From Antedon mediterranea (Eukaryota > Echinodermata > Crinoidea > Comatulida > Antedonidae): DNA of 64,000 nt. Shown one piece after another: positions 1-63,994 of the stretch. The DNA is taken from positions 31,244,501 through 31,308,500 of the forward strand of contig NC_092672.1 in the NCBI RefSeq assembly GCF_964355755.1. The letters are read 5' to 3'. The stretch's first letter is position 1, and every line of letters begins with the position of its first letter. The notes below the pieces were generated by a model, which saw only the letters and a program-made list of their open reading frames with translations, made no database searches and was not told the DNA's origin. The position numbers and the translations under genes are program-made.

Positions 1-87
1 AAATTTCATTTTGTTTGTTTCTGTATGAGGTGTATTTTCCCTCGGCTTTCAGTTTTTCTAGGTACTTTCTCTGTCGTTCGGCCATTT
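1..87 (-). CDS. Partial first coding exon of an unrecognised basic protein
   Basis: On the minus strand an acceptor-like CTTTAG is followed two bases later by an ATG (base 85 down to 83). An open frame then runs to the window edge, giving 28 codons that begin MAERQRKYLEKLKAEGKY. The peptide is rich in Lys, Arg, Glu and Gln and looks helical. Short 'AERQRKY..KLK' segments of this kind recur in uncharacterised invertebrate proteins, but I cannot name a family. The gene continues to the left of the window. It lies opposite to PEX14, whose own 5' exons are also missing, so the two genes may interleave. The exon could be spurious because it is short. Confidence 0.4.
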
Positions 88-1558
88 CTAAAGGCAGGAT
101 GCAAATGTGAATGATAATTTAAAATTATTTTTAAATAATAAGCAATTATATATTTTGTTTTTAAAACTACAATGCTTTAGACCTGGTGGTTTAAAATATG
201 CCTAGTAAATAATAATATATAAATAATAATATATAAATAAATTATTATAGCCTTAGGCCTATGCGGTGTTTTCAAATTATAGAATTTGAAATAATTAACA
301 CTAACAATATAAGAAAAAAAAAACTTTAAAATTGTGATTAAATATAAATGTATACTTATTCTTACCTTCTTATCTTCACAAAAGATTGTACCAAATTTGA
401 TAAATCTCACCAGATTTAGTGTTTTTTATTTAATGAGCTCTTATAATGATTTGATTTTTCAAATGATTTAACTGCAAAAAGGTTGTTGCTAGGGATTGTG
501 CCCTCAACAAACCTAATGCTATAATTATTATACTGTAGTGCCTCCAAATAAGGGCCAAATCACACATTGTATTATGAAATTAATGTATATACTAATTCTG
601 GGACTAATTCATAACTAATGATAGATTAATTACTATTTTACTTTACAAAAAAAAGAGTTTTAGTAATGTCACTCGCATTACATTGTCCATTTTTTAACGT
701 CACTCGCATTACATGTCACTCGCATTTCACTTTTCAATGTCTCAACAATTTTGTATTTACGGGGATTTTTTATTTTTATTTGTCAAATTTTAATTGTTCA
801 AAGTAGTATAGCTAAATTATAAAATTTCATTAAAAAAAATTATCATCATGATGGTATAAAAAAAAAAAATCATTTTTTTTGTCACTCGCATTACATACCC
901 TAATATATAACGGAATATACACAGCACTCCTATATGGGATATTCAACATTTGTAGTTATATCATATTTTCCATATATCTTAAGTGTACTACCGTATTACT
1001 TAGACATGTTACTTTATAAATATTGCTTTGTTGGGAAAATAATAATCAGTTAACGTAATTACCTATTTTTCACACCTAAAAAAAAATATATATTCAACAT
1101 TGAATAAACGTAATTTTTTGGCTGCAAAAAGTCATAAATGAATTGAAAAAGTTAAAAACCTAGTTCCCACATATTCAAAGAGTAACATAAACACAAATTT
1201 TGAGCTGACTAATTAATTTGAATTTTTTTGGTCATGTCCATGTTTGCATGGAATTGCCCATATGCTACAGTAATTATGGTTCATTACGCTATTTAAATTT
1301 TGATGAGGTCATCAATATAAAATTATCAAAATTAAATTTTAGTTAAACTATATGAAAATATTTTCAGAAAGTTTAAGTTCGGCCTTTTTTCGTTTTTTTA
1401 AATGTTTTATCCTATTCTCTTTGATCGTTTATTTACAAATAGTTTCTTTGTGAAATCATGTTGCCAAAATGACGACTTGAAATGAAAAATATCTAGGCAT
1501 CATATTAAAATAAGAAAACCTTTAATTTTGATGTGATTTTCCTTATTATTTTGTATAG
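88..1558. other. Gene-free AT-rich stretch with short direct repeats
   Basis: No convincing coding exon was found here. The unit TCACTCGCATTACAT recurs at about 669-683, 701-715 and 880-895, with a related copy at 716-730. The PEX14 N-terminal exon (the PEX5-binding domain) was looked for and not seen. Confidence 0.4.
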
Positions 1559-3837
1559 TATCCTATCGACCCCAAGGATGGCGTGGATATACGGCTCTTG
1601 GCGTGGTTGTTGGCAGCCTTGCCTATTGTATATACAAGTTCTATCAGGTGATATTCATATTTGTGTATTTAGTTATCTTTTAGATCTGTATGTACATCTA
1701 TTATTTTTTTTACATTTCATGCCAGTTTCAAATGTATTTCCATTTTTTATAATTGCAGCCATTTTCAAAACGTGAAATTTTTTTTTAAATACAATAAAAT
1801 TTGTATAAAACCAAACTAAAAGTTGACATTAAAACAGACAAATACTTACTTTGAAATTACAGTAATGATTGTATTGTAATAGTGTAATTAAAACAATTTT
1901 TGTCTATCACTATTCAGTCTTAACCAAATCAATTTGAAAATATAGAATTGATGTAACAACTCTAATTGCTACTTTTTTTTTTCAGAATGTAATTGCACCA
2001 TTTTTAACGAGGAAACGTGAACAGGTTGAAGCCCTTAAGGCAATGCAAGAGGCAGTGAAAGAACTCGGGGACAGTGTAGCAGAAACAGGTAAAGGTTTTA
2101 AGATTCACCATGATGCGATATTTCTTTTCATACATAAGTTGGAGACCCTTCATGAAACGTCACAAAATAAACATGAATATTCATTAGTCATATCCATAAG
2201 GTGTGACGTATGAATTGAGCTTACTACAATTCCCTAATGCAACTCTTTCCATCGAATCGTCTGTGTAGTCGAGTAGATTAGACTATGTACTTTACATTTC
2301 TATGTATGGGATTTGAATCCTATGGGCAACTTCTTTTACCTATAATGAGAGAGATTATTTAGAGGGTTAGGTTTAGATTAGTTATATTTAGGAAGTAGTT
2401 TTCACATAAGGGGTCCCCAACTAATGTACAAAAAATAAATTCACCAGTAAAGTATCCAGTATGTCTGACAACGTAACAACAAAAGAAACTGGGTGTAGCA
2501 TCAAATTTCTTTATACCTCTTTTTTATGAATGGATGCAGATTTCTTAATTTAAAAAAAATGTATAATACTGTAGTTTAGGGGACTAACATGTCAGTTAAA
2601 TTCCAGGGCAACACACATGCACAGTACAAACACAGGACATCTCGGAATAAAAAAACAGGTCTCGTCTGTGTGTTTTTCTTGGGAGATTTTCCCGAAAATT
2701 GTCTTCACACTATGCAAACCTGGCTACAAAAAAAAAAAAAACCTGGTTACAAGTTGTTACATTTTGCAGATGTGAAAAAAGTTTATTTACATTTTTCTGA
2801 AGATAGTTAAAGTTTATTTAACTTCCTTTCCCATAGTGAATGAGGTTCAGAAAATGGTCGACAGCATGAAAGTAAGTCTGAATAAGCAAGATCAAAAGCT
2901 AGACCAGCTAACATTGGATGTTGCCAGGAATAAAACAATGGAAACCACCGTGAAAAGTATTGACATCGGTGATATCAAAAGTGAACTTGTTTCGCTCAAA
3001 GGACTTGTGTTAAGCAGGTACAAGATATGACATAATCTGGGGAGTAGTGTAATACCTTGACACCTGAAACATGTTATAGGTTGACTTTTAGTGTCGTAGT
3101 AGAAGTTTCATGCATCACATTACTGTGAAACTGGACACATTACTGTGACACTTAAAACATGTTCTAGGTTGACTCATAGTGTTATTATAGATGTTCCATG
3201 TGTCACATTACTGTGACACTTGCAACATCTTCTAGGTTGACTCCTAGTGTCATGGTAGAGGTTTCATGTGTTGCATTACTGTGACACTTGCAACATGTTC
3301 TGGGTTGACTCCTAGTGTCGTGATACAGGAGAACTTACTGCAGTATTTTATTTTTAATGAATCCTCTTGATTGCCCATCCATGCCCACAATTCCTCTTCC
3401 TGAATTTTACATAATTCCTAAAACCTAATCATCTGATGTATTTTTACCCACAATTCCTCCTTATTTTTGTCTGCTTTAGAAACCAATTTCCTCGTACACC
3501 GAAACCAAGCCCAATCCCAGCATGGCAGATGGCGTCCAGTAAACCGAATGGCGATACAACATCGACAACCGAAACTCCGCCTGCAAACCACGTAGAACAG
3601 AGCGTTGATAGTGAACAAACTAGCGAGGCAGTATTATCAGAAACCGCTACTGATGGCCAAGGCAAAATTGCAAGGTCTTTAAGCGGTTCTTTCGAGGGGT
3701 CACTCAGTCCAAGTAAAATTGTACAGGGTACATATGAGAACGGTGGAATGCCGATTAATAATCACTTGGTCAACGGAGATAATTTCTCCGAAAATCACCA
3801 TGACGATTCAAATAAAAGCGATGATTCTGTTGATTAG
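1559..3837 (+). CDS. PEX14: Peroxin-14, peroxisomal import docking protein (3' part)
   Basis: PEX14 is the docking component of the peroxisomal matrix import machinery; it binds PEX5 and PEX13 at the peroxisomal membrane. Exons are 1559-1647, 1986-2088, 2837-3017 and 3480-3837 (stop TAG at 3835), with matching phases. The first exon encodes a WRGYTALG segment followed by a hydrophobic membrane stretch (GVVVGSLAYCIY). The next two encode a predicted coiled coil (TRKREQVEALKAMQEAV, then a long Gln/Lys/Leu-rich helix ending KSELVSLKGL). The last begins RNQFPRTPKPSPIPAWQ, the conserved PEX14 'R-QFP-SP--PIP-WQ' block, followed by an acidic Ser-rich tail. The N-terminal PEX5-binding domain is not in the window. 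Identification rests on the membrane segment, coiled coil and FP..P.IPAWQ block in the family order. Confidence 0.88.
2131..2429. mobile_element. MITE-like element with inverted termini in a PEX14 intron
   Basis: The left end TACATAAGTTGGAGACCC is mirrored by GGGTCCCCAACTAATGTA at the right end, giving imperfect terminal inverted repeats of about 25 bp. The interior (about 2265-2335) contains a good tRNA A-box (TAGTCGAGTAG) and a weak B-box (GATTTGAATCC), so a tRNA-derived sequence may be embedded. No ORF is seen. Confidence 0.55.
3059..3330. repeat. 68-bp tandem repeat, about 4 copies
   Basis: Units beginning GACACTTGCAACATGTTC recur at 3059, 3147, 3215 and 3283. The last three are exactly 68 bp apart, and the first interval carries 20 extra bases. 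The array lies in the last PEX14 intron. Confidence 0.8.
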
Positions 3838-4722: not shown

Positions 4723-7700
4723 CTATGTTGCAATGCTCATGTCAGGCCCATAAGACGGCGTCCAATAGTAGTGCCGTCGAATTCCATGGTTCAACTCGGA
4801 TAAGTATGTCTGTCCGTCCACTACGTAAGCTTGTACATCAGTATTCTCCTCTTCTAGTCTCTGTGACTCAATCAGTTCACTAAATGCCTTTTTAAAAATC
4901 AAAACAAAACAAATTGTTTAGTAGGAACGTGTTCAGACAATGAGAACAGGTAAATGTATATATATAATGCAGGGCCTACAATCATTTCCATGGCATCAAC
5001 TGCTGAACATCCCATCGGAAGGACAAGGGAACAGGAGTAAATGATGTCTCAAAGGACAAAAAACAAAATGGTAACATTTACAGTGCTTTTAACACAGCAA
5101 AATAAATCTATTCATTATAGTAGGCTAGACAGCGATTTGACTTAATTTTTGTAAAACAAACACTTTACATTTTGGCACACATGGCTTGTCATAACTATAC
5201 TTAAGCACCAATTTAATTTTGGGACAAACCGAATTCCTGCTGGTGGCAGGCAGGTAATGTAAAACAAAAATAGAGAGAACCCTTGGAATGCTTACGACGC
5301 AGGCAGGTTCCTCCAGTTTGTTCCCCCAGATGAACACACTCTCTAGACTTGGGTTGGAATGCATGCTCTTTGCAATAGCCACCAGCCCTGCGCCTTGGAT
5401 GTTGTTGCTTGTTATAACAAGGCTGTAAAAATAAAAAATGACATTATATAAAACCTGTTCTACACTAGCAAGACACATGAATCAGCCCATTGTGTGATAC
5501 ATGGCAAACCTCTTTTCCATTGAAATAAAATATTTTTACGTTTTTAAAGTTCGGTTAAGTTGCGTGAGGGCTTCGCTGATATACACAGCACCATCATCTT
5601 CAATCCTATTGAACCCAAGGTCAAGCACCTCAAGCGGTGTATTACGCTTCAGTAGTTTTGAAATTGCGAGGGCACCATCTCTTGTGATACGATTGCTGTC
5701 AAAGAAGAAACAATTATGTACGTATTACATTAGAACCAGCTTATTTTTATATACAGCTTTAAGACTTTTCCATTGAAAAAGCACTTTTTGCGTGTTCTGT
5801 ATATATATCAGATCCTGATCTTTTACATTCATCCACACACTTTTCAGAGTGTACTCGTATACATATGTTTCTCATTTTTTTTGCAGTACAAAAAAAAATA
5901 TGAATATGCATAAAAACCAAAACAAACATATTCATAGAAAAAACAAGTTTTATAAAGTTCAATGTACTGCACCGAGTTTTGAAAAACGAAGGTGTTTTGA
6001 ACTCCAGAGTTTTTTTAATTGTTATAGTCATATTAAACAAAATGCCAGGGTTGACCCCTGGTGTGTGCAAACTCTGAGGTGTACTGCATATGAAGAAAAA
6101 ATTTAGCAGATTCAACTGAAGTCTTACCAACTAAGATCCAGATATTTTAAGCCAATGTTAAGCACAAGAGCATCGACCAGACGCTCTGCTCCAAAATCTT
6201 TAATATCGCACTTTTGTAAATGAAGTTCACATAGATCACTGTTCACTTTTAGCATCAAAGCGTAATGAACTGTTGTTTCTTCTTGCTGACTGAACAATAG
6301 AGGGCGGTTCATGTTTAGCTTCTTCAACGTGCAGTTTCGATTCAGAACGGTTGCCATAGCTATCATACTTTTTGTGCCCTTTAAAGAAATCAATAATTGA
6401 GATTATCAAGTGTTTGTAATATAATTGATGAAATAAGAAATTGACCTCTGATACTGAGGATGGCAGAGATCAGGACTGAATAGAGGTCAAATTCACTTTG
6501 GCTCCCTATTTTCTAAACTAAATGAGTACTCTTCTACAATTGGCAACAATATTGACATTCTACAAACATGTAACGGCTATGATAGCTCACTGGCTAAACC
6601 CACGGGCCTCGGGGCTTATGGGGGCCCCTGAGCAGTGCCCAGAGGAAAAACAGGTATCAAAATATGTCAAAAAAGGCAAAAAAACGCCAGAGGCCTCCAG
6701 CATTGGAGGGCCTCTTAGGGTTCCTAAACGAGGGCCTCTTAGGGTTCCTAAACGAGGGCCTCTTAGGGTTCCTAAACCAGACGCCTCTGCATTACACCAC
6801 TGCACATCACCTGCAGAAATCCGAAATTGCAAAACGATTGGCATGAGATTTTGACTTCACAAATGTTAACTATTTCTCTCACCTGGTCAGTGTCTCCCAG
6901 GTCAAGATCTTCCAATGCCGTGTTCACCTGAAGGGCCTCAGCAAAACCCATTCCTCCCTTGTTTCCGATCTTGTTCCCATTTAACCGGAATGAGATGAGT
7001 GTTGCATTCACCTTGATAAAAACGGAAACTGTTCATTAAAATTAATATGGTGATATAACCTCTACATCCTTTCAAAAACTGGAAAATTCCTGTTAATATC
7101 CAACGATTATTAATGATTTGTACCTGGATTCCGGCACACAGGTATGCAGCACCATCAGGGCCAATGTCATTACACATAATGTTCAAATGTTTCAGACCAC
7201 ATGTATCCTGTGAAAAGAAAAAAGCTGTTTTGTTCTTTTTAACCAAAATAATTACTTTGCTTAAAAGAAAAACAAATTCTACTAATTTTTATATACACAA
7301 AAAGACCAGGCTTTACAATTTGCCTAAAATGAGAATAAAAAAAAAAGCTCTTGACAAAAAAATGATGTGCCCAAATAGGGTAGTGACATGCACAAATATG
7401 CTAATGATATGACATCGTCATGTCCATATAAGAGCACATCACATTTTTTTTCTACATAAAATTTGATGTGTTGACAGAGCTTTAGTTTACTCATAACTAG
7501 TGGGTCTGGTGTGACATTTCGCAAACAATGTATGGGTAGCTGGGCTTAATCGTAAGAACTGTACTTTAAGCAACAAAAAAAAAAAACAAGTTTGTGGAAT
7601 GCTGGTCTAGTGGGTTCCATACTTTGCTTCTAAGTAACATTAATTTAATTTTTGTATATAAAAAGGCAATTTCCAAGGATAACCATAAGTTCACTGTACT

Positions 7701-10208
7701 TCTCAAAGTATCAGATATCTAAAACTTTCAACCAATCAGAAGCTCAGGATGAGTAAGTGAAATGCACTATTTAAGATGAAGTTGACTGAATGACTTTAGG
7801 ACAGTCAATTCTCATTCTCAATACCATTGTGAATGCCAAGTTAATATTAGTATAATATAAGAATAAGAATAAGATATCAGCTATATGGACTTTTAGGTAC
7901 AAGCTAACCCACCACTTTCAATGCTTAAACATTATTCCAAATTTAAGAGAGAGCACACGGCAGCATCCGATTGACTTCTCTGTCTTACCTTAATCAGATT
8001 TCCAATATGTTTAGCACCCTCATCGGAGATATTATTATATCTGAGGTCAAGTGAGGTCACATACGTACTGTTCACTAATGACTTGTAAAGAATCAATGCG
8101 TCCTCATCCTGAAGTCTTGTATCTGTCAAGAGGTGATTGTTGCCTGGCAACTTGATCGCCATATTGTCTTGTGGATCTCTAGATCAACCAATGAAATGTG
8201 TTTAAACTTTTTGTGATATTTCAATGATTGATTTATTGAATGAATACATGATTGATTGATTGATTGACTAATTGAATGATTGACTAATTGATTTAATGAA
8301 TAATTAATTAATTAACTGATAGATTAATTGATTGATTAACTGATTGATTGATTAACTGATTGATTGATTGATTGATGAATTGATTAACTGATTGATTGAT
8401 AAGAGTGATTGATTGACTGATAGATTGATTAACTGATGGAGTAACTAATTGATTTATTAATTAATTGATTGATTGACTGATAATAGCTTGACTGACTGAT
8501 AGATTGACTGATTGATTAACTAATTGATTTATTAATTGATTGACTGATAGGTTGATAGATTGATTCATTGACTTATTGACTGATTGATTAATATATATTG
8601 ATATTTATTAATAACATATGCATATATGACATAAATGAAAACAAAAAATTAAACATAAGAATATATGGGTAGTTAAGTAACTTATTACTTATTAAAGTAA
8701 GTAAAATCTAAGGAAAGAATCAACATTAAGTATTTCCTAATAAAAGATATAAAGCATTATTAATTTGTTCATTCGTTTTTTTACACATAGAACAGAAAAC
8801 AAATTAAAGTATTTAAGATTGACATAACACAACACATAATAAATACATTATCTTGAGAGAAAAGGACCAGTTGCATAATGCAAAGGCATGAAGCTCCTGG
8901 TTTAGGGACGCTAACTGGCCCTCAACGCTGGAGGCCTCAGCCTTTTTGACATATTTTAATGCCTGTTTTTTCCTCTGGGCACTGCTCAGAGGCCCCCATA
9001 AGCTCTGGGGCTCGTGGGTTTAGCCAGTGAGCGCTCATAGCCGTTACACCACTGCAAGGATTTTCTCTATCCAGATTTCCCTCAAAACTTAGTAAGTTAA
9101 GAATTAGTTAGAAAGGTATTTGTTGTTTCAAAAGAATAATTGAGAAGGTTTATCATGCAATATAATAGCACTATCCAATTTTTAATATATGGCTAAAATG
9201 CTAAGCAAACTAAAGTATGGTTTAAAATTATAAAGTTAAATTTAATTATAAAAAGTCAGCAATTCATTAAATAAGAATGGCATGGAGGGAATATTGAAAT
9301 ACATATTCATGAATATGAAATTATGTTGGATATGAAACACTGCACATGCTAGGAAATCATGCATATTCATGAATATGACTTGCATAATATAATATTCATG
9401 ATTGGATCATGCATAATTCATGGTATTTACTTACTCATTGTTTTTAGCTCTTCTGAAAATTTAAACAGTTACATTTTAATATTTATATAATTATATAGTA
9501 CTAAAAAAAGCAATGAAATGAAATATTGAGAGTGCTTACATTGTGAGGGTGGAACATGACCCTTGAAACCCTTATGTAACACGATCTACCTACATGCAGT
9601 CTGCTATTTTTCCATCTACAGAGCAGTGTGAGATAGCAGTTTAAGCAGCCCAGAAATTAAAATTTCAATTACAAAAATGAGACCTTAATACACTTGTCAA
9701 TTGTATGACCCACTATATGACCCCGGGAGAGGTGCGCCATTTGTCCGATGTGGGTCATACCTTGTGAATACAATGACCTACCCCTGCATAAAAAAAGTGA
9801 CTATACCTTTAGGTGACCATGACGCACCCATTTTGACGCATTGTGTTCATGATATGGTGGGTGGTAAAGTGATGGACATTGACACACCATTGTTCATTGA
9901 TGTGACGTACCATTTGAGTTTTTTTACACCCCTGCATACAGTATATAATTATTTTTAAAAGACGCATCCATAACGCACATCTCCCGGGGGGTCGTATAGT
10001 GGGTTATACAATTGACAAGTGCATAAGAAACACCAATAAACGTTTCACTTAAAATCTACATTAATCCCCAAAAAAAGTCCAACTATACTTACATAATTTG
10101 TTCTTGCCGTTCCATGTCCAGGACTTTCATGATAAATTTATTTGGTTTTAAATCAAGTTCTTTACAAGTCTCAACATAACGGTTCTGTACTCCACTTGGA
10201 TCTGACAT
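4723..10208 (-). CDS. LRRC34: Leucine-rich repeat-containing protein 34
   Basis: Eight coding exons on the minus strand: 10093-10208 (ATG at 10208), 7989-8178, 7124-7207, 6883-7011, 6128-6378, 5540-5695, 5296-5422 and 4723-4887 (TAG). They total 1218 nt, or 405 residues, with every junction in phase. The protein is a run of ribonuclease-inhibitor-type leucine-rich repeats, for example SLDLRYNNISDEGAKHIG, FRLNGNKIGNKGG, LDLGFNRIEDDGA and ITSNNIQGAGLVAIAK. The C-terminus (IWGNKLEEPACVAFSELI, then YVVDG and HYYWTPSYG) matches the LRRC34-specific tail as I remember it. LRRC34 is associated with nucleolar and germ or ciliated cells; its precise role here is not shown. The ATG follows an acceptor-like TTTTTTTGTAG, so a 5' UTR exon probably lies upstream. 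It converges on PEX14. Confidence 0.88.
6568..6803 (+). mobile_element. hAT-like MITE, copy 1 (LRRC34 intron 4)
   Basis: The interior shares long blocks with the inverse of 8868-9054 (TAACGGCTATGA, CTCACTGGCTAAACCCACG, GAGCAGTGCCCAGAGGAAAA). The right end reads TTACACCACTGCA, matching a CAGTGGTGTAA terminus. Inside, a 24-bp block (GAGGGCCTCTTAGGGTTCCT plus AAAC) is repeated three times at about 6705-6778. Confidence 0.6.
7343..7484. mobile_element. Palindromic MITE family A, copy 1
   Basis: AAAGCTCT starts and ACAGAGCTTTA ends the element. The interior carries the family core (GATGTGCCCAAATA, GACATCGTCATGTCCATATA, GCACATCACATTTTTT). This copy lies in a LRRC34 intron. Confidence 0.7.
8220..8600. 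repeat. ATTG/GATT tetranucleotide microsatellite
   Basis: About 370 bp made almost entirely of ATTGATTG/AACTGATTG variants in LRRC34 intron 1. Point changes are spread evenly, which suggests an old array. Confidence 0.85.
8868..9054 (-). mobile_element. hAT-like MITE, copy 2 (LRRC34 intron 1)
   Basis: Inverted and shorter relative of 6568-6803. It runs from CAGTTGCATAATGC to CCGTTACACCACTG, so both ends resemble CAGTKGYRTAA. No clean target duplication is visible. Confidence 0.6.
9691..10021. mobile_element. 331-bp MITE with about 45-bp inverted termini
   Basis: CACTTGTCAATTGTATGACC...CCCGGGAGAGGTGCG at the left is mirrored by CGCACATCTCCCGGG...TATACAATTGACAAGTG at the right. The short open frame inside is part of the element, not a gene. 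Related interior sequence occurs inverted at about 59455-59575. Confidence 0.75.
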
Positions 10209-11165: not shown

Positions 11166-13424
11166 ATGAAATTACAAGTTTTAGCAATACAATCAGTTTT
11201 TTGTGCGTGTATTGTTGCTGTTTGCAGTACTAAAGTCTGTTCATATTATGGTAATTATACTTGATTTTATCGTGTTATAAATGCTAGGCAGAACCAGTGT
11301 GATGTGTATGGAAATTCCTATTCTTATTTATTATTAATAAACTCCTTCTTGTCTTGCATAGCAGTCAGTGTAGCCTCTCATGTGTTTCATTTGTGGCCTG
11401 GCCTAGCGCTCGCCTACTGTATAGTTTTTCTTCAATTGATCTTTTAAATAGTACTATATAATAGGCCTACGTATTTATAATAATTTATAATTAAAAAATC
11501 TACATTTTGCAGATCTAGGAGATATAATTTATAATATAGTTATTGTTGAAAATAATTATAATAAATGTTTTCATAATATACTGTACAGTATGTTTCCACC
11601 TCAACTATGTTAAGATACTGTCCTATATCATTTTAAATACACATTTTTAACAATATAATAATAGAATACCAATAGTAAAATAACATGATACAAAACGTAC
11701 ATTATTTTTCAGGTGAACAACGCTATGCAGCTCCACAATCAAGTTTATCGAACTGTTCATGGTTCAGCGACTCGGCGTGTTGTCGTCGTACAGAGGTGAC
11801 ATCGGTCTTAGGTGGTATGTACAAAATCAACAAAGCATCGCAAGAGTGCAAGAACAGATTAAATTACATGATGTGTTACTTCTGCAGTCCAAATCAAATG
11901 GATTGGTATGATGAGTAAGTAGGGTCAGCTTGGTCAAAACAACTCGGTTCAAGTCAACTCGGTCCCAAATCAACTCAATCCAAAGTCAACTCAGTCTAAC
12001 ACTAACTCCCTTCCCAGTCAACTTGGTCCCACATCATACCAGTCTGACACAACTCTCTCAACCCAAGTCAACTCGCTCCCAAATCAACTTAACTCCATCC
12101 AACATCATCAACTCGGTCCAAAGTCAACTCAGTCTAAAACTAACTCGCTCTCAAGTCAACTCGCTCTCAAGTCAACTCGCTCTCAAGTCAACTTAACTCC
12201 ATCCCACATCAACAACTCGGTCCAAAGTCAACTCAGTATATCACTAACTCGCTCTCAAGTCAACTCGCTCTCAAGTCAACTCGCTCCCAAGTCAACTCGC
12301 TCCCAAATCAACTTAACTCTATCCCACATCATCAACTCTGTCCAAAGTCAACTCAGTCTAACACTAACTCGCTCCAAGTTAACTCGCTCTCAAGTCAACT
12401 TGCTCCCAAGTCAACTTAACTCCATCCCACATCATCAACTCAGTCCAAAGTCAACTCAGTCTAACACTAACTCGCTCCAAGTTAACTCGCTCCCAAGTCA
12501 ACTTAACTCCATCCCACATCATCAACTCGGTCCAAAGTAAACTCAGTATAACACTAACTCGCTCCAAGTCAACTCGCTCTCAAGTCAACTCGCTCCCAAA
12601 TCAACTTAACTCCATCCCACATCATCAACTTAGTCCAAAGTCAACTCAGTCTAACACTAACTCGCTCCAACTTAACTCGCTCTCAAGTCAACTTGCTCCA
12701 AAGTCAACTTGCTCCCAAGTCAACTTAACTCCATCCCACATCATCAACTCAGTCCAAAGTCAACTCAGTCTAACACTAACTCGCTCAAAGTCAACTAGCT
12801 CTCAAGTCAACTCGCTCCCAAGTCAACATAACTCTGTCCCACATCATCAACTCAGTCCCAACTCAACTCGGTCCAACATTAGCTTGCTACCAAGTCATCT
12901 CGGTCAAAAACTAATCAGTCAATCAATCCTAGTATTCATGAATATTAATGATATACAACTGGTGCCCATTAGGGAGACTTGCTCCAAGTCTGTAGTTATC
13001 GTCTTTTTTATGTTAGTTCATGCCAGCAGCGTTTTGATTTTTGTCTGAAATAGTGAGCTCAAGTATGATACATATGAAACGCCATGTGTGCCAAAATATC
13101 TTTGTACCTAGACTAACCATTAGGCTATAGTGCTGATAACAATTGTTTTTTTTTTCCTTATATAGGAATAGAGTGATCATTTGTTCTGATTTCTGCGAGG
13201 AAACGTTTAAAGTATGCAATACCGCTACATACAACAATGAACCTCTGCTGAAGGGGTTTGAAACGGCCAGCGAATTCTGTAAAGCCCAGAGCTTCCACAT
13301 GATAGAAGGCACACAGAACTGTTTCAACTTTGACCCAAATGTGTTTGACACAGGAGGTCAATCATTATCATCATTTCTGTTTGTTTTCGTTTCATTTCTA
13401 CTTTGTGTTTTTGTAATTCATTAA
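11166..13424 (+). CDS. Folate-receptor-like cysteine-rich extracellular protein
   Basis: Three exons, 11166-11250, 11713-11914 and 13166-13424, give 181 residues in consistent phase. Residues 1-20 form a signal peptide (MKLQVLAIQSVFCACIVAVC). The mature part holds 12 cysteines, including NCSWFSDSACC, MMCYFC and ICSDFCEETFKVC. This C-CC...C..C...C...C spacing resembles the N-terminal part of folate-receptor-family domains. The last 20 or so residues are hydrophobic and end at the C-terminus with no charged tail, which fits GPI-anchor attachment. I infer a cell-surface or secreted ligand-binding protein. It is shorter than typical folate receptors (about 240-260 residues), so it may be a divergent lineage-specific member. 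Intron 2 carries a 1-kb minisatellite. Confidence 0.65.
11935..12950. repeat. Degenerate minisatellite based on (AAGTCAACTCGCTCCC)n
   Basis: The basic unit is about 15-16 bp (CAACTCGCTCCCAAGT). It is grouped into a longer period of roughly 85-125 bp, marked by recurrences of CATCCCACATCATCAACT (about 12083, 12197, 12320, 12422, 12508, 12612, 12731). It fills intron 2 of the folate-receptor-like gene. Confidence 0.85.
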
Positions 13425-29766: not shown

Positions 29767-29937
29767 TATACAACTTCGGTTTCTTTTATTTTTATTTTTT
29801 GGTTATAAAGTTAGACCGTAACTCGCCAAATTTAATTTGGCTAGGCTAGGTGCAATTGTGGCGGCGAAAAAGAGAGAGAGAGAAGAGGATCTTTTTTTAG
29901 TAGTCTAGCGCCATCTATATTTTATGAGGTAACAAAC
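29767..29937. promoter_or_regulatory. Compact bidirectional promoter, DDX19 / MRPS22
   Basis: Only 171 bp separate the divergent start codons. The sequence contains GTGGCGGCGAAAAAG, a short GA run (GAGAGAGAGAGAAGAGGA) and no obvious TATA box. Both 5' UTRs must fit here unless there are upstream non-coding exons. A shared promoter is inferred from the spacing. Confidence 0.65.
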
Positions 29938-48523: not shown

Positions 48524-48831
48524 GTCTATCAAATTTTTTTTCTTTAGAATAATCAAGGACAGAATTGATAGTAATATAATAAGTCCTATTATTTTTAGTT
48601 ATATTGTGTTTCCAATTACCTTAACAACTGCAGTTGAAAGAATTACGCGCGCGTACGACCCTGCGTAGCGCGTTGGTGACGCGCATAGTAACGGTCGCGC
48701 GTTTCCTGTTGCCCTGGAGCTGCTGCTCCTGACAATAGCATAAAAACAAACGTCACCACACCCAGAACTAGAGTCGATCCACTAAGTACGATACATATCT
48801 ATTCAATTTAATTGATTATTAATTCATCAGT
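48524..48831. promoter_or_regulatory. GC-rich divergent promoter, 48023-48523 gene / EFHD gene
   Basis: The 308 bp between divergent starts contain an island of CpGs (about 48644-48705: CGCGCGCGTACG, GTAGCGCG, GACGCGCATAG, GGTCGCGCG) that is unusual for this AT-rich window. A single GTTGCC (48708-48713) resembles an RFX half site, but no full X-box was found. Confidence 0.55.
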
Positions 48832-51012
48832 ATGGTTGATAATGATTTGGCTTCTCGTTTGCAAAAAAGATTAGACGTTGAATCTGGAAAAGAGATAGAA
48901 GAAAACAAACTAGAGTACAAGGACCCACATAAAGAGTTCGCACACCCGTATCCAGAATTCAGCGAGTTTACGCGCGAACAGTGTCAAGAATTTGAAGACA
49001 TGTTTGCGCAGTAAGTATAAACGTAGGCTTACCCATCAAGTAGGTCTGCACCCCAATACCATTTCCAACTGTAATGTGATGTGCTTTGTTTAAATACTAG
49101 ACTTATGAAGATTTCTATTTTCCGGAAACGTTAGCTTTGTTCTCTACTAGACTCTGCTGACTACTGACACGACAGATGACATTTCTTATTTCTTACAATA
49201 AGACCTTAATATAGAATAAGGCCTACTAAGAGTAGATGAACGTAAAAAGAACACTGCCGACGTGAAGTCATAACAGGAAAGTCACTCGTTCCTGGTCATA
49301 TTGTCAGTACTTCTCTGTTAGGCTACCAGAAATGACTGTTATTATTATCATTCAAAGTGTTTATGTTTTTTTAGGTACAATAGCAATCACGATGACTATA
49401 TTTGTTACGATGAGTTAAAATGCATGATGGAACTTCGCGGCGAGCCTATGACGCATTTGGAATTAAAGAAGTTGATAGCGGCGGTTGACGAAGATAAAGA
49501 TGACAAACTTTGCTTCAGAGAAGTAAGCAAATCAGTTAATCCCATGGGCATATATTGGGGTTTAAAAGCATACGCATGTTACGTCACACTTTGTAATAAC
49601 GTTGTCGCACTTTACCTGTCGCATGTGGTGTAGTGTCGAACTCACCTGTCACACTTTGAAACGTTGTCGCACTTTACCTGTTGCATGTGGTGTAGTGTCA
49701 AACTTTGTAACACCTGTCACACTTTGAAAAGTTGTTGCACTTTACCTGTGGCGTGTGGTGTAGTGTCGAACTTTGTAAAGTTGTCGCACTTTACCTGTCG
49801 CATGTGGTGCAGTGTCGAACTTTGTAACACCTGTCACACTTTGTAAAGTTGTCGCACTTTACCTGTCGCATGTGGTGTAGTGTCGAACTTTGTAACACCT
49901 GTCACACTTTGAAACGTTGTCGCACTTTACCTGTCGCATGTGGTGCAGTGTCGAACTTTGTAACACCTGTCACACTTTGTAAAGTTGTCGCACTTTACCA
50001 GTCGCATGTGGTGTAGTGTCGAACTTAGTAACACCTGTCACACTTTGAAACGTTGTCGCACTTTACCTGTCGCATGTGTGGTGTAGTGTCGAACTTTGTA
50101 ACACCTGTCACACTTTGTAAAGTTGTCGCACTTAACCTGTCGCATGTGGTGTAGTGTCGAACTTTATAATACCTGTTACACTTTGTAATAAAGTTAATTT
50201 CTCAATATCAAGGGCGACAGCTCCTGAATAATTACAAAATGCGACACAGCAGTTTCATATTGTGATGGGTTTTTAAGCAGTGCGACAACTTTATTATAAA
50301 TTTTGACGCGACAGCTTATATTATTAATATTACAAAGTGCGAGTTATATTACAAGGTGTGATGACGGAACATTACTAAATGCGACTTCTGCAATTATTAG
50401 GCCTACAAATACGTGCGACAACCTGAGACCAATTGCAATCGATCACCACGATTACTCACATTCAACATATTATTACATATTTGTAATCATAAATATAACT
50501 CAACTTGTGTATTTTGTTCTCGTCTGAAAAATGCGAAGGTCCTCTTGTACACTTGCGTTTTTGCGTATAACGGATTGATACCAATTTTTTTTCTCAGTTT
50601 ATGTTGATGTGGAAGAAATGCCTAACAGGAGTATTACCAGAAGGTACGGGATTTGCAAAAATTGCCGCAACAAACAAAATGATACTGGCAAAGCCTGCAA
50701 CCCATGCAGGTACGTCTGGAGTCGGAGGAGCAAAAGCTCTGTTTGAAACCAAGGTAAGTTCTCCATTGGTCTCAATATTTCAGTAACTTATTTCAGTTGA
50801 AGATTATTGTATGAAAGAGAGATGTCTTTCTAACTTGTTTTCTTTTTCCGTGCCAGCAAAAATCGCACGCGGATAGCGAGGACAATGCTGAAGAGATTCG
50901 TGCAGAACAACGGAAGGCTTACGCAAAGAAAAGAGCCGACAAGGCGGCGGCGGAAAAGGAAGCTCAAAGAAAGGCTGCATTTGCTGCCAGATCGGGCGCC
51001 TTTGGCAACTAA
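48832..51012 (+). CDS. EFHD1/EFHD2: EF-hand domain protein of the EFHD1/EFHD2 (swiprosin) family
   Basis: Swiprosins are calcium-binding, actin-associated adaptor proteins. Four exons, 48832-49010, 49375-49522, 50598-50753 and 50857-51012, give 212 residues in consistent phase. The order is: polar N-terminus, conserved YPEFSEFTREQCQEFEDMF helix, first EF loop (NSNHDDYICYDE), second EF loop (DEDKDDKLCFRE), FMLMWKK, a GVGGAKALFETK segment and a C-terminal charged coiled coil (EEIRAEQRKAYAKKRADK) ending KAAFAARSGAFGN. The first loop has Asn at position 1 and Asp instead of Gly at position 6, so its calcium affinity may be reduced. The second keeps D-D-D...E. The family's layout and the VDED-KLCFREF block are clear; EFHD1 and EFHD2 cannot be separated here. 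Confidence 0.88.
49600..50190. repeat. 68-bp minisatellite, about 8 copies, in EFHD intron 2
   Basis: The unit contains GTCGCACTTTACCTGTCGCA, TGTGGTGTAGTGTCGAACTT and TGTAACACCTGTCACACTTT. The 68-bp spacing was checked at 49868, 49936 and 50004. Downstream to 50420 there are scattered inverted fragments (GTGCGACAAC, AAATGCGAC). Confidence 0.85.
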
Positions 51013-53506: not shown

Positions 53507-56500
53507 TTAGGCTGATGAAGTTTTGACGCCCACAGCCTTCTCCTCACCCATCGCCTTAAGGATGGTAACCTAAAAAACGTCAAATACCAAATTTACTGCA
53601 GGCTAGCAAAATGGTGTGTGGGTAAGAAAATTGGCTTATGTTGGGCCGGCTTGTAAAACTAGGCCAGTGGATTATTTCATGTGAAAAGAATTATAAATAG
53701 TATATTGAATGCCAACTCACCAAAATTGTTTCGTCATTTTCGAACTTGGTGTTAATTTCCTTACCAATTTCATTTTCTGGTAGTTTGATGTCCTCGCGAA
53801 CATCTCCACCATCATCCATAAGAGATAAATAACCCTCATCTATATTGGTCAGCTGAAAAATCATGTAAAACCTTAATCAAACATCTAAAATTGATTATAA
53901 ATATTCTTTTATAGAATGTGCAATAGTACCCAGTCAGTACTGGAAAAACAATAGTACCCAGTCAGTACTAGAAAAACAATAGTACCCAGTCAGTACTGGA
54001 AAAACAATAGTACCTAGTCAGTACTGGAAAAACAATAGTACCCAGTCAGTACTGGAAAAACAATAGTACCCAGTCAGTATTGGAAAAACAATAGTACCCA
54101 GTCAGTACTGGAAAAACAATAGTACCTAGTCAGTACTGGAAAAACAATAGTACCCAGTCAGTACTGGAAAAACAATAGTACCCAGTCAGTACTGGAAAAA
54201 CAATAGTACCTAGTCAGTACTGGAAAAACAATAGTACCCAGTCAGTACTGGAAAAACAATAGTACCCAGTCAGTATTGGAAAAACAATAGTACCCAGTCA
54301 GTACTGGAAAAACAATAGTACCTAGTCAGTACTGGAAAAACAATAGTACACAGTCAGTACTGGAAAAACAATAGTACCCAGTCAGTACTGGAAAAACAAT
54401 AGTACCCAGTCAGTACTGGAAAAACAATAGTACCCAGTCAGTACTGGAAAAACAATAGTACCCAGTCAGTACTGGAAAAACAATAGTACCCAGTCAGTAC
54501 TGGAAAAACAATAGTACCCAGTCAGTACTGGAAAAACAATAGTACCCAGTCAGTACTGGAAAAACAATAGTACCCAGTCAGTACTGGAAAAACAATAGTA
54601 CCCAGTCAGTACTGGAAAAACAATAGTACCCAGTCAGTACTGGAAAAACAATAGTACCCAGTCAGTACTGGAAAAACAATAGTACCCAGTCAGTACTGGA
54701 AAAACAATAGTACCCAGTCAGTACTGGAGAAACAATAGTACCCAGTCAGTACTGGAAAAACAATAGTACCCAGTCAGTACTGGAAAAACAATAGTACCCA
54801 GTCAGTACTGGAAAAACAATAGTACCCAGTCAGTACTGGAAAAACAATAGTACCCAGTCAGTATTGGAAAAACAATAGTACCCAGTCAGTACTGGAAAAA
54901 CAATAGTACCTAGTCAGTACTGGAAAAACAATAGTACCCAGTCAGTACTGGAAAAACAATAGTACCCAGTCAGTACTGGAAAAACAATAGTACCCAGTCA
55001 GTACTGGAAAAACAATAGTACCCAGTCAGTACTGGAAAAACAATAGTACCCAGTCAGTACTGGAAAAACAATAGTACCCAGTCAGTACTGGAAAAACAAT
55101 AGTACCCAGTCAGTACTGGAAAAACAATAGTACCCAGTCAGTACTGGAAAAACAATAGTACCCAGTCAGTACTGGAAAAACAATAGTACCCAGTCAGTAT
55201 TGGAAAAACAATAGTACCTAGTCAGTACTGGAAAAACAATAGTACCCAGTCAGTACTGGAAAAACAATAGTACCCAGTCAGTACTGGAAAAACAATAGTA
55301 CCTAGTCAGTACTGGAAAAACAATAGTACCCAGTCAGTACTGGAAAAACAATAGTACCCAGTCAGTACTGGAAAAACAATAGTACCCAGTCAGTACTGGA
55401 AAAACAATAGTACCCAGTCAGTACTGGAAAAACAATAGTACCTAGTCAGTACTGGAAAAACAATAGTACCCAGTCAGTACTGGAAAAACAATAGTACCCA
55501 GTCAGTACTGGAAAAACAATAGTACCCAGTCAGTACTGGAAAAACAATAGTACCTAGTCAGTACTGGAAAAACAATAGTACCCAGTCAGTACTGGAAAAA
55601 CAATAGTACCCAGTCAGTACTGGAAAAACAATAGTACCTAGTCAGTACTGGAAAAACAATAGTACCCAGTCAGTACTGGAAAAACAATAGTACCCAGTCA
55701 GTACTGGAAAAACAATAGTACCCAGTCAGTACTGGAAAAACAATAGTACCCAGTCAGTACTGGAAAAACAATAGTACCTAGTCAGTACTGGAAAAACAAT
55801 AGTACCCAGTCAGTACTGGAAAAACAATAGTACCCAGTCAGTACTGGAAAAACAATAGTACCTAGTCAGTACTGGAAAAACAAAAGTACCTAGTCAGTAC
55901 TGGAAAAACAATAGTACCCAGTCAGTACTGGAAAAACAATAGTACCCAGTCAGTACTGGAAAAACAATAGTACCCAGTCAGTACTGGAAAAACAATAGTA
56001 CCCAGTCAGTACTGGAAAAACAATAGTACCTAGTCCAGAGGTCCAAAGTTCCCCAAAATTTTTAATGCAGATCCTCGCCTATCCGAAAATTGGTTATTTC
56101 CCCCGAAAATCTGGACGATTTAGCCTAGAGATTTGTCATCTAAATTAACACTCCTGGTCCTGTTGATAATGACGATCGGTATTTAAACAAAAGCATTTAT
56201 TAGGAATTTGTTTTACAAATTAACAGCCATCCATCAACTGCCAAGCCAATTACACATGTGACATTGTATTGTAGTTGTATTAATGTCACATGCAACCCAC
56301 TTAATAATATATTAGCTGAAATAGCGCCCTCTATATTATTTTAATTATTATAGGAAGCCCTCTATTGTTTACCCAAAATGTTTTCAACTTGGGGCCTCTG
56401 CCTGTCAGTATTGGAAAAACCATAGTACCCAGTCAGTACAGTGTACTGGAAAACAATAGTACCAAAGAATTCATAACATTCAACGCCAATTCAAAATACA

Positions 56501-59317
56501 GTATCGGAAATAAAGTGTTAAAAGGCCATTTCACATCATAGAGAAGTGCACTCTCCAAACTAGAAAGGCAAAACTATTAATATACCCATACTATAGAGGT
56601 CTCTGTACTAATATACCCATACTATAGAGGTCTCTGTACTAATATACCCATACTATAGAGGTCTCTGTACTAATATACCCATACTATAGAGGTCTCTGTA
56701 CTAATATACCCATACTATAGAGGTCTCTGTACTAATATACCCATACTATAGAGGTCTCTGTACTAATATACCCATACTATAGAGGTCTCTGTACTAATAT
56801 ACCCATACTATAGAGGTCTCTGTACTAATATACCCATACTATAGAGGTCTCTGTACTAATATACCCATACTATAGAGGTCTCTGTACTAATATACCCATA
56901 CTATAGAGGTCTCTGTACTAATATACCCATACTATAGAGGTCTCTGTACTTGAATAATACATTATTAATACAAAATATAGTAAAATTCAGTCTTTTCAAA
57001 ACTAAAATTATACAATTTCTCAATGATGATCAACTACACAAATAAACTAATTAATCAAAGTAGTCTTGCATAATTTTTTTTATTTGAAAACACTTATTAT
57101 AATCAAATATAGACCTTCATGGTTCACAATGGCGCCACTCGTTTTTTCTTTTTCTATCCTACAATGCCTTTCGAAATTGTTACACTTTTCGGACGAACAG
57201 GAGATTAAGTTCTTTGAGAGTACTCACCTGATAGTCCACACGCGAGACATGTGGAACATTCATGTTATGGGTTGATGGACAAATATCCTCATATTTCTTG
57301 TTTGTGAAAATATCAAGAGCAACCAGATGAACCTGTGATGGATATAGAAAATATGTCAATTGGAAAGGTACAATTTACAAGTGTTATGTGTTAGTACAGT
57401 AGAACCTTCATTTTACGTACAGTAAAACAAGAGATTCGTAAAATCCAGGTTGACCTTAAATTGACCCCAAATACGTAGAGATCGTAGCTATAAGGGCTAC
57501 CGTGTTTGCCTAGGCCTACTTTACTGTATTGTACATCATGCAGGTGGTCACTAGCTAGGCCCAAGATGCGAGGCCTAACTAGAAAAGTACAGTATATATA
57601 GCCTGTACGTTTAATAACAATGTTCTTGTATTTTCTATCAATAAAAACAATTGCTGCTGTAGGGGGACTGCAGGGCATCACGTATGTAAAACCCAGGAGA
57701 GCAACAAATCGCTCTCCTCAAATCACCGAGGAGAGCAATTCGCTCTCCTTGCAAAAATTTTAAATCGCTCTCCTCAAATATTTATGTTGAAGTTGAAGGA
57801 TGGTCGCCCCCCCCCCCCCCCCCCGGGCACAACAAATGTATACTGTACCTCTCCCCTAAAATCCCCCACACCCACCTTTACACACAATATTTTCCGTGGG
57901 GATCGTATTATTCTACAGTACAAAAAACTCAAGCCAATTTTTTTTTATGGCCTGCCTGGGTAGATTGGGTTTCAGGAGCCTGGAGAATCCTGTCCTGGCC
58001 AACTATATATGCCTTTTTAGCCTAGCTTTTCTAGCCTAGCTTGTTGGCCTAGAAATCAGACAGAAAACCTGAAAAGTATTTACCTGCAATTCATAAATTA
58101 TACAATTCTAACATGCAACAGCCATTAAAATATTGATAATAAGTTACAAAGTGTCATTTTAAAATAATTAAGAAAGATATTTGATCGTGTTTACATGTGT
58201 CACACATGGGCGCACGCACAAAATAGGGGAGGGCTGAGAGAGCTTCTAGAAGATGCTGACGTCACACATCAGCACGTGTTTTGAGGAGGATTTGAGTGAC
58301 CAAAATTGGTTAGAACTTTCGAAGAAATAATCCATCTTCAAAATGACATAATTAAAGCAACCAGCAGCTAAGCTTTTTTAAATAATAAACATTATATTTA
58401 GGCCTCCTATATTAATGTTTCCTTTTAAAATTAAATATATTTTATTAACTCGTTCCATAAAAACATAAAGGGAAAAATTATTGGTTGGGACATGATCTTC
58501 CTGTAAAGGAGGTGTTTCTATGACACCGTACTGGTTGCACTATGAGGCGATGAAGTAAACTCGCCCTTGGAATGCACGCAGGCAGGGGAATCCCCTTTGT
58601 TGGTACCTCGCACTGTGAGATGGAGCGCGATGAATTGCTCTCCTTTTCGAAGGTTGTTGATTGCGATCGCGCTCGCGATCCTTAAAAACGAGGGACTGCC
58701 ATTAGGCTTGTAGCTTTATAACTTAGCTTATATATTATTAGCCTAGGCCTAGATTGGTTTTAACTTTTAAAAATCCACGTGTTTTTAGGCCTCTTGACAG
58801 AAAAATCAACACTGTCTAAAGCTAGGCTCTATTTTGAAAATTAAGGAGCGCGATAAATTGCTCTCCTCGAAGCCTGTTGAGGAGCGCGGAGGAGCGCGGT
58901 CGCGCAGGCGCTCCTTATAAATGATGCCCTGGGACTGCATGTGTGTGTAGCTTGTCTCACATTAGGTTTATTAGAATTAACTTGCGTTTCATACTGTGCA
59001 TAGTATTCAATTTGTTTGTTTACGACATGCATTAAATACATAATTTATACAGTTTGCTTGCAAGTGTAAACAGACATTCTTGAATGTTTCTAAAATTGTT
59101 AACCTTACATGTTTAATTTCTCTCTGGAGAGAGGATGTTAAATAATTCAATTCACTTAATTTACCTTAGCGTGACCATGCTTTCCGGTTTTAGAAGTAGA
59201 CATCTCCACAATTTTGCATGGCCGCCCCTTGATCACTACATAACCATTTTTGCGAAGGGAAGAACACTGGGCTGGGAATGTTTTAGAGGCACCCGAATCG
59301 GTCTCATACTCACTCAT
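53507..59317 (-). CDS. EIF5A: Eukaryotic translation initiation factor 5A
   Basis: eIF5A promotes peptide-bond formation at stalling motifs and termination; it needs hypusine. Four exons on the minus strand, 59165-59317, 57228-57332, 53721-53852 and 53507-53569, give 150 residues in phase 0 throughout. Key blocks are [20 protein letters not shown], the hypusination loop [12 protein letters not shown] (the modified lysine would be Lys46), [40 protein letters not shown] and [13 protein letters not shown]. The N-terminus ([18 protein letters not shown]) is slightly shorter than in vertebrates. A large 28-bp satellite and a 31-bp satellite occupy the intron between exons 2 and 3. An 8-bp-duplication transposon lies in intron 1. 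The EFHD gene converges on it and the Y-box gene diverges from it. Confidence 0.96.
53926..56034. repeat. 28-bp minisatellite, about 75 copies, highly homogeneous
   Basis: The unit is TGGAAAAACAATAGTACCCA plus GTCAGTAC. The period is exactly 28 bp over 2.1 kb. Most copies are identical; recurrent single changes are CCTAG for CCCAG and TATTGG for TACTGG. Each unit contains the palindrome CAGTACTG. A two-unit remnant lies at about 56402-56462, after about 370 bp of unrelated sequence. Confidence 0.97.
56035..56404. other. Unique sequence splitting the 28-bp satellite
   Basis: About 370 bp of non-satellite DNA separate the main array from its remnant. No exon, inverted ends or target duplication was seen, so it may be an insertion or simply a deeper relic of the array edge. 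Confidence 0.4.
56576..56950. repeat. 31-bp minisatellite, 12 nearly perfect copies
   Basis: The unit is AATATACCCATACTATAGAG plus GTCTCTGTACT, repeated 12 times with no visible change between copies, which implies very recent expansion. It lies in the same EIF5A intron as the 28-bp array. Confidence 0.97.
57664..58938. mobile_element. Non-autonomous hAT-like transposon with perfect 8-bp target duplication
   Basis: GGGACTGC occurs at 57664-57671 and 58931-58938. Between them lies a 1259-bp element whose ends AGGGCATCA and TGATGCCCT are inverted. Subterminal regions carry many copies of GCTCTCCTC and GGAGCGCG in both orientations (57700-57775 and 58615-58915), as expected for transposase-binding repeats. 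No transposase frame is present. The 8-bp duplication suggests the hAT superfamily. A poly(C) run of about 18 lies at 57807. It is in EIF5A intron 1. Confidence 0.82.
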
Positions 59318-59454: not shown

Positions 59455-59575
59455 ATCAATAAATTTTAAAATGGGTGCGTCATTGTCACGTAAAGGTAAG
59501 TGACTTCTCTATCATGGTATACATAGTATGACCCACATCGAACAAATGACGCACCTCCCACATGTATAGAGCATC
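59455..59575. mobile_element. Partial inverted copy of the 9691-10021 MITE
   Basis: TGGGTGCGTCATTGTCACGT, AAAGGTAAGTGACT and TATGACCCACATCG match the inverse of the interior of the earlier element. The terminal repeats are missing. Confidence 0.6.
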
Positions 59576-60812: not shown

Positions 60813-61003
60813 TAGCTCTGTCTACACTCTATCAAATTAGTTTGACCAAAAAGTGTGATGTGACCAAATATGGTAGTGATATGCCCAAATATAGTTAACG
60901 ATATGACATCATCATGTCCATATGATCTCTGCATGCTGTACACATCACATTTTTTTGTCACCGCGAAATGTTTGATGTGTGTGTAGAGAGTGCAGGCTTT
61001 AGA
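60813..61003. mobile_element. Palindromic MITE family A, copy 8
   Basis: TAGCTCTGTCTACACTCTAT at the left; GTGTAGAGAGTGCAGGCTTTA at the right is split by a small change. The core ACATCATCATGTCCATAT is intact. Confidence 0.75.
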
Positions 61004-61313
61004 TATCTTGATTTTTTTTATAGTAATAATTAAGTAATGTATTGCCTTTATTAGAATAAATGATTATAGATAATATTAGAAGAGTTTTATAATTCTTATA
61101 TAATTTCTTATTATTATGATTCTTTACTATCATCATATTTATATTATTAGCCACACAATCATAGCCTCTTGTTAAAACGTATAATGTTGGTGGCGCACTT
61201 ACAATTTAGAGAAAGCGTCTAAATATCCCAGAATGCACTTAGTCATGCAGCATAAAGAACAACGCTGTGGAAAAGAGTGGAGTTTATAACATCTAGAATT
61301 AACATCTCAAACA

Positions 61314-63994
61314 ATGTCTGAGGGCCAGGAACATCATATTGAGACCGAAGAGGCCCCAGAAAAAAAGGTCGTCGGTATGTACAATTCAAAATTTCTAATT
61401 TATAAGTTATACAAAATATTAAATTATTGATTTTAATGTTAGGCTGTCTTGAATTGTTGGCCGTGGTGCTCTCGCGAACGACTCGGTTTAGTTCGTCAAC
61501 ACGTCGGCAGCGAATCGATCGCGGATTGGCTCTGGCACTCGTCGAAAACAATTTTAGCTTTTATTGGGGTTTTATTTTACAGTAAGAAATCATTAATTTG
61601 ATTATACTGTATTAGTCTTTTTAAGTACATTATTATTATTAGTTTATAGTAACCATTTCTAAAATTTATTATTTGGTTGATAAATAATCGGCATCATCAT
61701 CAGAAAATACAGTCATCAGAAATGCCAAGCATTCTTTCATCTACTTTGCTGCATGCTGCAACAGCAAAACTATTTTGGTTTTTTGTCGACCAATTGATTG
61801 ACTGAATTTACATTTGTCCATCCATGTTTGGTCTTCCAACAATTATTTATAATTCATTATTAATAATAAATGAAAATCATTAATGTTATTAACAACATTA
61901 AAGTTGAATTTGTTTATAAATTATAAAATCCATTTATTTATTTATCAAAATATTATCTCAGCATGTTTTTAAAAATATTTATTTTACATATTGTTTATGT
62001 TTCATTTAAGGAAATATTACATTTAATGTTAAAATTTCAATAAAATAGTAGCTATCAATGTTCAATACCCAGTAAAAATATTTTTGTTTTAATTTCTTTG
62101 TTTATTTAGGGCCTAGTTTCTTACATTTTTATGTATTTTTTCTAGCTTTAAGATGAATTTAATAAGATAATGGAAACCATAAGTTCAAAATTATAATTTA
62201 AAAATTCTATAAATTGGCTAGAGGGTGAACTCATAATGTTATAGTTCAAAAAGTAGAGGGTGAACCACACAATGGTGGCTGCAAACGACCATTCACCACG
62301 CAGTCCCTCACAATGCCTGCACGTGCAATGCTAGAGTTGGACTTTACGAAACACTTCCCTCCCCTCATATTTCATAAAATCCCTGTAACGCGAGACTAAG
62401 AAATTACTTTTCTTTTCATTGTGATTAACAATATGAGTATATAATATAAGGAGTTCACTGCTTTATATACTAAATAATATTTATGGCAGCCATTTCGAGC
62501 GGACCCCCTCCTGTTGGAATCACCTCTTGTGACTATAGTGGACGATCTAGTACTTATATGCTTACACGCGTAGTATGATCTATGAAAATAACCTTAAAGT
62601 TCAGAGTTCAAAGTAACCGATAAAAATATATTTCTTTTACAGCCACCAAAGTCTCTGGAACCGTAAAATGGTTTAATGTCAAGAATGGATATGGTTTTAT
62701 CAACAGGTAAGTTTAGTCACATAAAACCGCTCGGTTTCATTGAAAATCTGCTTTTAATTTTAATGCATTCAATATTCGCGAATCAATACTATATTTGCAT
62801 GGTGTTCACATTCTGCATAGGTGCCATTGTGGAATATGGAAAGTCTGTTGGACTTTGAGTGTTTTCATTGTTCATATATTATTGATTGTTCCTAACAACC
62901 TATTGTGTTGAATACTATCTTTAAACGGGTTGTCACCTTGTTTTATTTTGTTTAGTAGTTTTGTAAGTATAGAAATACTGTATTAAATTCAAAATATTAC
63001 TTGAATTTAGGTTACATGTTTAATTTGACCAGTTTAAAAAATATTAGTCAACTGGAGGAATAATATATCTATAGAGGGCAGTAAAGTAATATTATATTTG
63101 GTTAAAGATGTCCCCCAAAAACATGAAAAATTAGGATTAATTTAACGTTAGTCACTTCTATAAAAAAAAATTTGAAAATACAAAATAAACAAATACATTT
63201 AACCAAAAAGCTTGACTATTTCTTTGCGCTTTTTTTTCAGCTAAAGCTAAATAAAAATTTTTTTTTCGATCCACTTTTTGGTCAAAATTGGTAACTATTA
63301 TTTTTTTTCCAACAGAGATGATAATAAAGAAGATGTTTTTGTACATCAGGTAAGTTGAGAAAATGTTGATTTTTAACTTTATTGAATGTATTGTAGGTAA
63401 CCCCCTACTTGTCTTGAAAGATGCATATGAGTATTATTTTGTACCTGGGACCTACGGTTCATATGACTTCTAGAACCATGGAACGAATGAGCCTTGAACC
63501 CATGCCATGAGACTACGGTTTCACTTTAACCGCTCGGCTACTCCTTGGATTCTACAGTATTTACCCTGATAGTTATAATTAACATTTTCAACAATGTTAC
63601 TTTATAGACTGCAATTAAAAAAAACAACCCAAAGAAATATCTACGCAGTGTAGGAGATGGCGAGGCTGTAGAATTTGACGTTGTAGAGGGCGACAAAGGC
63701 ACAGAGGCTGCCAACGTCACAGGGCCAGATGGTGCCCCTGTCGAGGGCAGTAAGTATGCTGCTGAGAGACGTAACTTCCGCCGGCGGTATTACCGTAGAC
63801 GGCGCCCACAGAAGGAGAATGGAGAGGTGGGCGAAGGAAGCGCAGGTGAGGGTGAAACATCCGAAGGAGGTGGAGATGGTGAGAAAAAGAATGTCCGCAG
63901 AAGAGGACGAGGTGGTGGAAGGTATCGCGGAGGAGGATACCGCAGATATCGTGGTCCACCTCGTAACCGCTCCGAAGATGATGACGATAAGGAG
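61314..63994 (+). CDS. YBX1: Y-box binding protein with cold-shock domain (3' part outside window)
   Basis: Y-box proteins bind single-stranded RNA and DNA and package mRNA in the cytoplasm. Exons are 61314-61374, 62643-62706, 63316-63349 and 63608-63994 (ending at a GAG|GTAGGG donor), with phases consistent. The cold-shock domain begins [20 protein letters not shown] (RNP1 core NGYGFI), continues [11 protein letters not shown] (RNP2) and [19 protein letters not shown], and ends [20 protein letters not shown]. This is followed by alternating basic/aromatic and acidic patches ([10 protein letters not shown], then [14 protein letters not shown], then [19 protein letters not shown]) typical of the Y-box C-terminal tail. 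An apparent donor GGCA|GTAAGT at 63749 is not used, since the frame matches the family through it. The gene continues past the window. Confidence 0.93.
63470..63545 (-). mobile_element. tRNA-derived SINE head or tRNA relic in a Y-box gene intron
   Basis: On the minus strand, GAGTAGCCGAGCGGTTAAAG resembles the D-arm/A-box of class II tRNAs, and GGTTCAAGGCT resembles a B-box with two changes. The stems do not form a full cloverleaf by eye, so a working tRNA is unlikely. Confidence 0.5.

Follow-up and report, generated by a model that had tools for sequence, protein, structure and literature searches.

Short bidirectional promoters are common among animal housekeeping genes, and the head-to-head gene pair is the described arrangement to which the locus presented here stands closest. 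Mammals show an enrichment of short divergent gaps that is not detectable in fishes or non-vertebrate animals, and approximately 50% of neighbouring gene pairs are co-directional in most eukaryotes (PMC2871058). A literature search for runs of alternating gene orientation found nothing. The stretch of DNA analysed (the window) spans 64 kb, C3:31244501-31308500, of the 354-Mb assembly of the crinoid Antedon mediterranea, which consists of 11 large contigs and a number of small ones; coordinates below are those of the window, negative values lying to its left. In common with the head-to-head pairs of other animals (PMC2871058), the locus has neighbours on opposite strands, housekeeping products (MRPS22, DDX19, PEX14) and, in five of its eight pairs, predicted starts less than 1 kb apart. 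It differs from them in that eight such pairs follow one another uninterrupted, three of the gaps exceed 1 kb and the starts are those of predicted coding sequences (CDS).

The genome is intron-rich, with a GC content of ~34%, and the gene set of the window is that of an animal. Genes were modelled with a simple exon-chaining finder using a codon model trained on kinase and helicase exons of the same genome, and the resulting models were tested against Pfam and the PDB. This finder is permissive: 64 kb of shuffled DNA gives rise to ~10 models (median score 17), and the 99% point of the exon score null is 12.2. Models without homology were given zero weight, the sole exception being a 191-aa open reading frame (ORF) that was kept as probable, and transposon reverse-transcriptase remnants were left out of the gene count. 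Eleven genes were retained, ten of them with family matches in Pfam or the PDB, and they alternate strictly between strands:

1..3837, + strand, 3' part of PEX14 (peroxin 14), whose start lies at ~-1789, left of the window; Pex14_N, 4e-13
62-106, 1559-1647, 1986-2200, 2837-3017 and 3480-3837, + strand, PEX14 exon models, linked to N-terminal exons that lie left of the window
4723..8162, - strand, leucine-rich-repeat (LRR) protein (LRRC34/ribonuclease-inhibitor-like repeats); LRR_6, 2.5e-38, six repeats
11717..13799, + strand, folate-receptor-family protein, two collinear exons; Folate_rec, 1.6e-13 on the joined pieces, above cut-off
19163..29766, - strand, DDX19/DBP5 RNA helicase; DEAD, 1.5e-24; Helicase_C, 1.2e-27; best PDB match DDX19B (3fmp), 3e-159
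29938..35122, + strand, mitochondrial ribosomal protein MRPS22; MRP-S22, 2.4e-102
39898..45422, - strand, Elongator subunit ELP5; Elong_Iki1, 4.2e-19
46641..47546, + strand, UBX-domain protein (UBXN10-like), a 308-aa ORF, essentially single-exon; UBX, 1.2e-5, above cut-off
48023..48741, - strand, uncharacterised 191-aa ORF, probable gene on the basis of ORF length and exon score only
48832..51012, + strand, EFHD1/2 (swiprosin)-like EF-hand protein; EF-hand_7, 9.6e-12; PDB EFHD2 (5i2l), 6e-26
53534..59317, - strand, eIF5A; IF5A-like_N, 1.5e-39; eIF-5a, 5.8e-27
62483..64000, + strand, Y-box (cold-shock-domain) protein, running on through right-flank exons to ~65015; CSD, 3.5e-26

The LRR protein gene was broken into two models by the exon finder. 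The Folate_rec matches were located by genome search at 11727-11915 and 13167-13286 on the + strand, and in the Y-box region a six-frame search found the CSD on the + strand only. Several introns and gaps carry repeats. A very homogeneous 2.1-kb minisatellite in an eIF5A intron (53921-56035) comprises 75 copies of a 28-bp unit at 98% match, and a second array in an intron of the same gene (56578-56950) comprises 12 copies of a 31-bp unit at 100% match. Two DDX19 intron minisatellites (23289-24833, a 54-bp unit repeated 28 times, and 26003-28315, a 20-bp unit repeated 117 times) keep a - frame free of stops over hundreds of codons; both resemble false ORFs. One reverse-transcriptase remnant (31426-31959, +) lies inside MRPS22, and a 361-aa open reverse-transcriptase fragment (35833-36918, -; RVT_1, 2e-26) lies between MRPS22 and ELP5. 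The C-terminal part of the latter matches Pfam ALKBH8_N, which is probably a mislabelled piece of the retrotransposon.

The alternation extends on either side of the window in the flanks read (left, 30 kb; right, 54 kb). On the left, an ALKBH2-like gene (-), a WSC/EPTP gene (+) and TMEM222 (-; RTE1-like, 1.3e-31) precede PEX14, with TMEM222 directly adjoining it, and on the right the Y-box gene is followed by cyclophilin (-), ARMC9 (+) and a RAP1GAP-like gene (-). The full run thus amounts to 17 genes and 16 junctions, and the strands of all but one gene, the 191-aa ORF, are backed by homology. An earlier note on this DNA had described twelve consecutive alternating genes; its reading of the pattern is real and correct for the eleven genes above, save for one entry, the partial - exon with which its list begins, and for its estimate of rarity. 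A six-frame Pfam search over 1-5000 showed nothing for that exon, and the exons predicted there belong to PEX14 on the + strand, so that a - gene at the window start was rejected. Further left, a near-perfect palindrome (~-23958 to -10063) has 6.5-kb inverted arms of 99.1% identity around a 1.26-kb self-complementary centre, and each arm bears an ALKBH2-like gene; the inverted copy, on the + strand left of the - one, would be an 18th member of the run. Either the sequence was recently duplicated in inverted orientation or the assembly folds back on itself here. With the palindrome copy left out, all six junctions outside the window alternate (p = 0.016 under coin flips), and, because they were not part of the pattern first noticed, they constitute a fair test. 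They are the one result to leave room for an orientation bias, and they hint mildly that divergent pairs are in excess.

The run resolves into eight (-,+) pairs, namely ALKBH2/WSC, TMEM222/PEX14, LRR/folate receptor, DDX19/MRPS22, ELP5/UBX, 191-aa ORF/EFHD2, eIF5A/Y-box and cyclophilin/ARMC9, followed by RAP1GAP, and in every pair the two neighbours are transcribed away from each other. The gaps from CDS start to CDS start measure 90, 171, 188, 524, 738, 1218, 3165 and ~3554 bp (median 631 bp), five of the eight thus being under 750 bp, with the proviso that transcription starts may differ. The convergent gaps have a median of ~2 kb; that between the folate-receptor gene and DDX19, whose last exon ends at 19163, is ~5.4 kb. 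The two closest divergent gaps are CpG-rich relative to the other gaps examined and are candidates for shared promoters:

29767..29937, no strand, candidate shared promoter of DDX19 and MRPS22, start codons 171 bp apart; CpG observed/expected ratio of 1.11 across 29760-29945
48742..48831, no strand, candidate shared promoter of the 191-aa ORF and EFHD2, predicted starts 90 bp apart; CpG observed/expected ratio of 1.59 across 48640-48840, coding sequence included

Judged from sequence, the short gaps fit shared bidirectional promoters for approximately five of the pairs, without amounting to proof. The pairwise promoter sharing proposed previously is therefore plausible for several pairs (gaps of 90-738 bp in five of eight), but sits less well with the three gaps above 1 kb.

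We favour, with a probability of roughly 0.6, the reading that the locus is a chain of ordinary head-to-head pairs that have fallen in a row by chance, with some help from a modest surplus of divergent pairs. Each pair has the order (-,+), so that pairs placed side by side alternate without any further cause, every convergent junction coming free from the divergent pairs that adjoin it. Several of the pairs probably have one short bidirectional promoter in common, and the occurrence of so many in succession would be a matter of chance in a genome of tens of thousands of genes. The gene identities, strands and distances on which this reading builds are observed, while promoter sharing and the size of the divergent excess are what we infer from them. 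In its favour are the shorter divergent gaps (median 631 bp against ~2 kb for convergent ones) and simulation: because divergent units lying side by side alternate automatically, long runs become commoner, and placing 30% of genes in fixed (-,+) units raises the number of runs of at least 17 genes from 0.2 to 2.1, with 31 runs of at least 12. Against it, divergent gaps of 1.2, 3.2 and 3.6 kb are long for a shared promoter, although unannotated 5' exons could shorten them, and the enrichment of short divergent gaps is not seen in fishes and non-vertebrate animals (PMC2871058).

The strongest of the competing explanations, which we regard as unlikely while granting it real weight, is that orientations are independent coin flips and that the run was noticed because many windows were scanned. 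Ten alternations from one fixed start have p = 0.001, and the earlier figure of 1 in 2^11 is likewise valid for a single pre-chosen starting gene and not genome-wide; it is further off because shared promoters, if present, would tie the junctions to one another. Among 25,000 randomly oriented genes, simulation gives 12.5 runs of at least 11 genes, 6.2 of at least 12, 0.4 of at least 16 and 0.2 of at least 17, the probability that any run reaches 16 genes being 33%; the gene number is an assumption, and 20,000 or 30,000 genes would give 4.7 or 7.5 runs of at least 12, respectively. The co-directional share of about one half reported for most eukaryotes is as expected of coin flips. Nevertheless, pure chance does not account readily for the alternation of all six junctions outside the window, nor for the five divergent gaps of less than 750 bp.

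Rather less probable is a strong excess of divergent pairs, genome-wide or confined to a housekeeping-rich region, in which runs of more than 15 genes would be common and would be maintained, for example, by shared promoters or by confining transcriptional supercoiling. Genome-wide searches with PF00069, PF00271, PF00076, PF00071 and PF00004 yielded too few matches less than 10 kb apart for an opposite-strand fraction to be calculated. Same-strand kinase clusters do occur in this genome, with four genes on the - strand at C8:6.419-6.433 Mb, three on the + strand at C10:17.370-17.384 Mb and five on the + strand at C9:20.88-20.97 Mb. These clusters exclude a strict genome-wide rule of alternation but, as tandem paralogues, are no measure of bias among unrelated neighbours.

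It is a little more doubtful still that the pattern is an artefact of gene calling, either because the run is interrupted by genes missed in the gaps or because the 191-aa ORF is no real gene, in which event UBX (+) and EFHD2 (+) become same-strand neighbours. This ORF has no match in Pfam, in the PDB or, in a paralogue search, elsewhere in the genome. Its exon score, 12.8, lies above the 99% point of shuffled sequence, and it is longer than the longest ORF in 59 of 60 shuffles, an ORF of at least 191 codons being reached in one of the 60; from these sequence properties we regard it as a probable gene. A 126-codon antisense frame is open over part of it. The gaps at 8.2-11.7, 13.8-19.2 and 59.3-62.5 kb are large and without a homology-supported gene, and the exon finder proposed five models without homology that would break the pattern if real:

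8937-10648, - strand, weak same-strand model
14155-19060, - strand, weak same-strand model
45784-46626, + strand, weak same-strand model
47561-47806, + strand, weak same-strand model
59471-62116, + strand, weak same-strand model

The best exon scores of these models (3.6-8.0) lie inside the noise of shuffled sequence. Six-frame Pfam scans over 8937-10648, 14155-19060 and 59471-62116 revealed no gene besides the known Y-box exon, and neither tRNA genes nor Rfam families were found within the 64-kb window. The earlier note had held that unannotated genes in the introns or gaps would undo the pattern; no other Pfam match was detected in the frames scanned, although weak real genes look like noise when ~10 false models arise per 64 kb.

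The eIF5A and Y-box genes are adjacent and divergent here (53534-65015), with ELP5 lying ~8 kb left of eIF5A, and the human YBX2/EIF5A pair is, we presume, divergent. On human 17p the listed gene order is ELP5, CLDN7, SLC2A4, YBX2, EIF5A, GPS2 (PMC5791184), so that in both species eIF5A directly adjoins a Y-box gene and ELP5 lies nearby; between ELP5 and the pair lie UBX, the 191-aa ORF and EFHD2 in the crinoid, and CLDN7 and SLC2A4 in human. The pairing of eIF5A with a Y-box gene thus seems to be of ancient origin, and eIF5A, Y-box and ELP5 possibly form an ancient linked group. Least probable of all is that selection actively keeps the alternation, for instance because a convergent/divergent layout would confine the supercoiling that transcription generates or would limit read-through between housekeeping neighbours: 17 genes without a same-strand neighbour, all six new junctions included, and the human adjacency speak for it, but same-strand clusters exist elsewhere in the genome, the run requires eight independent divergent pairs and not 16 independent coincidences, and the evidence of conservation concerns one gene pair and not alternation itself. 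The constraint on local gene organisation suggested earlier is, as a global constraint on alternation, accordingly unsupported, given that runs of 12 are expected by chance and that head-to-head pairs alternate automatically.

A chain of ordinary head-to-head pairs, our preferred reading, illustrates that a conspicuous pattern of gene orientation can come about with ease, since such a chain is bound to alternate and any animal genome is expected to contain runs of 12. Should an excess of such runs be present genome-wide, it would make it possible to test whether animal gene order is shaped by transcription-coupled mechanics.
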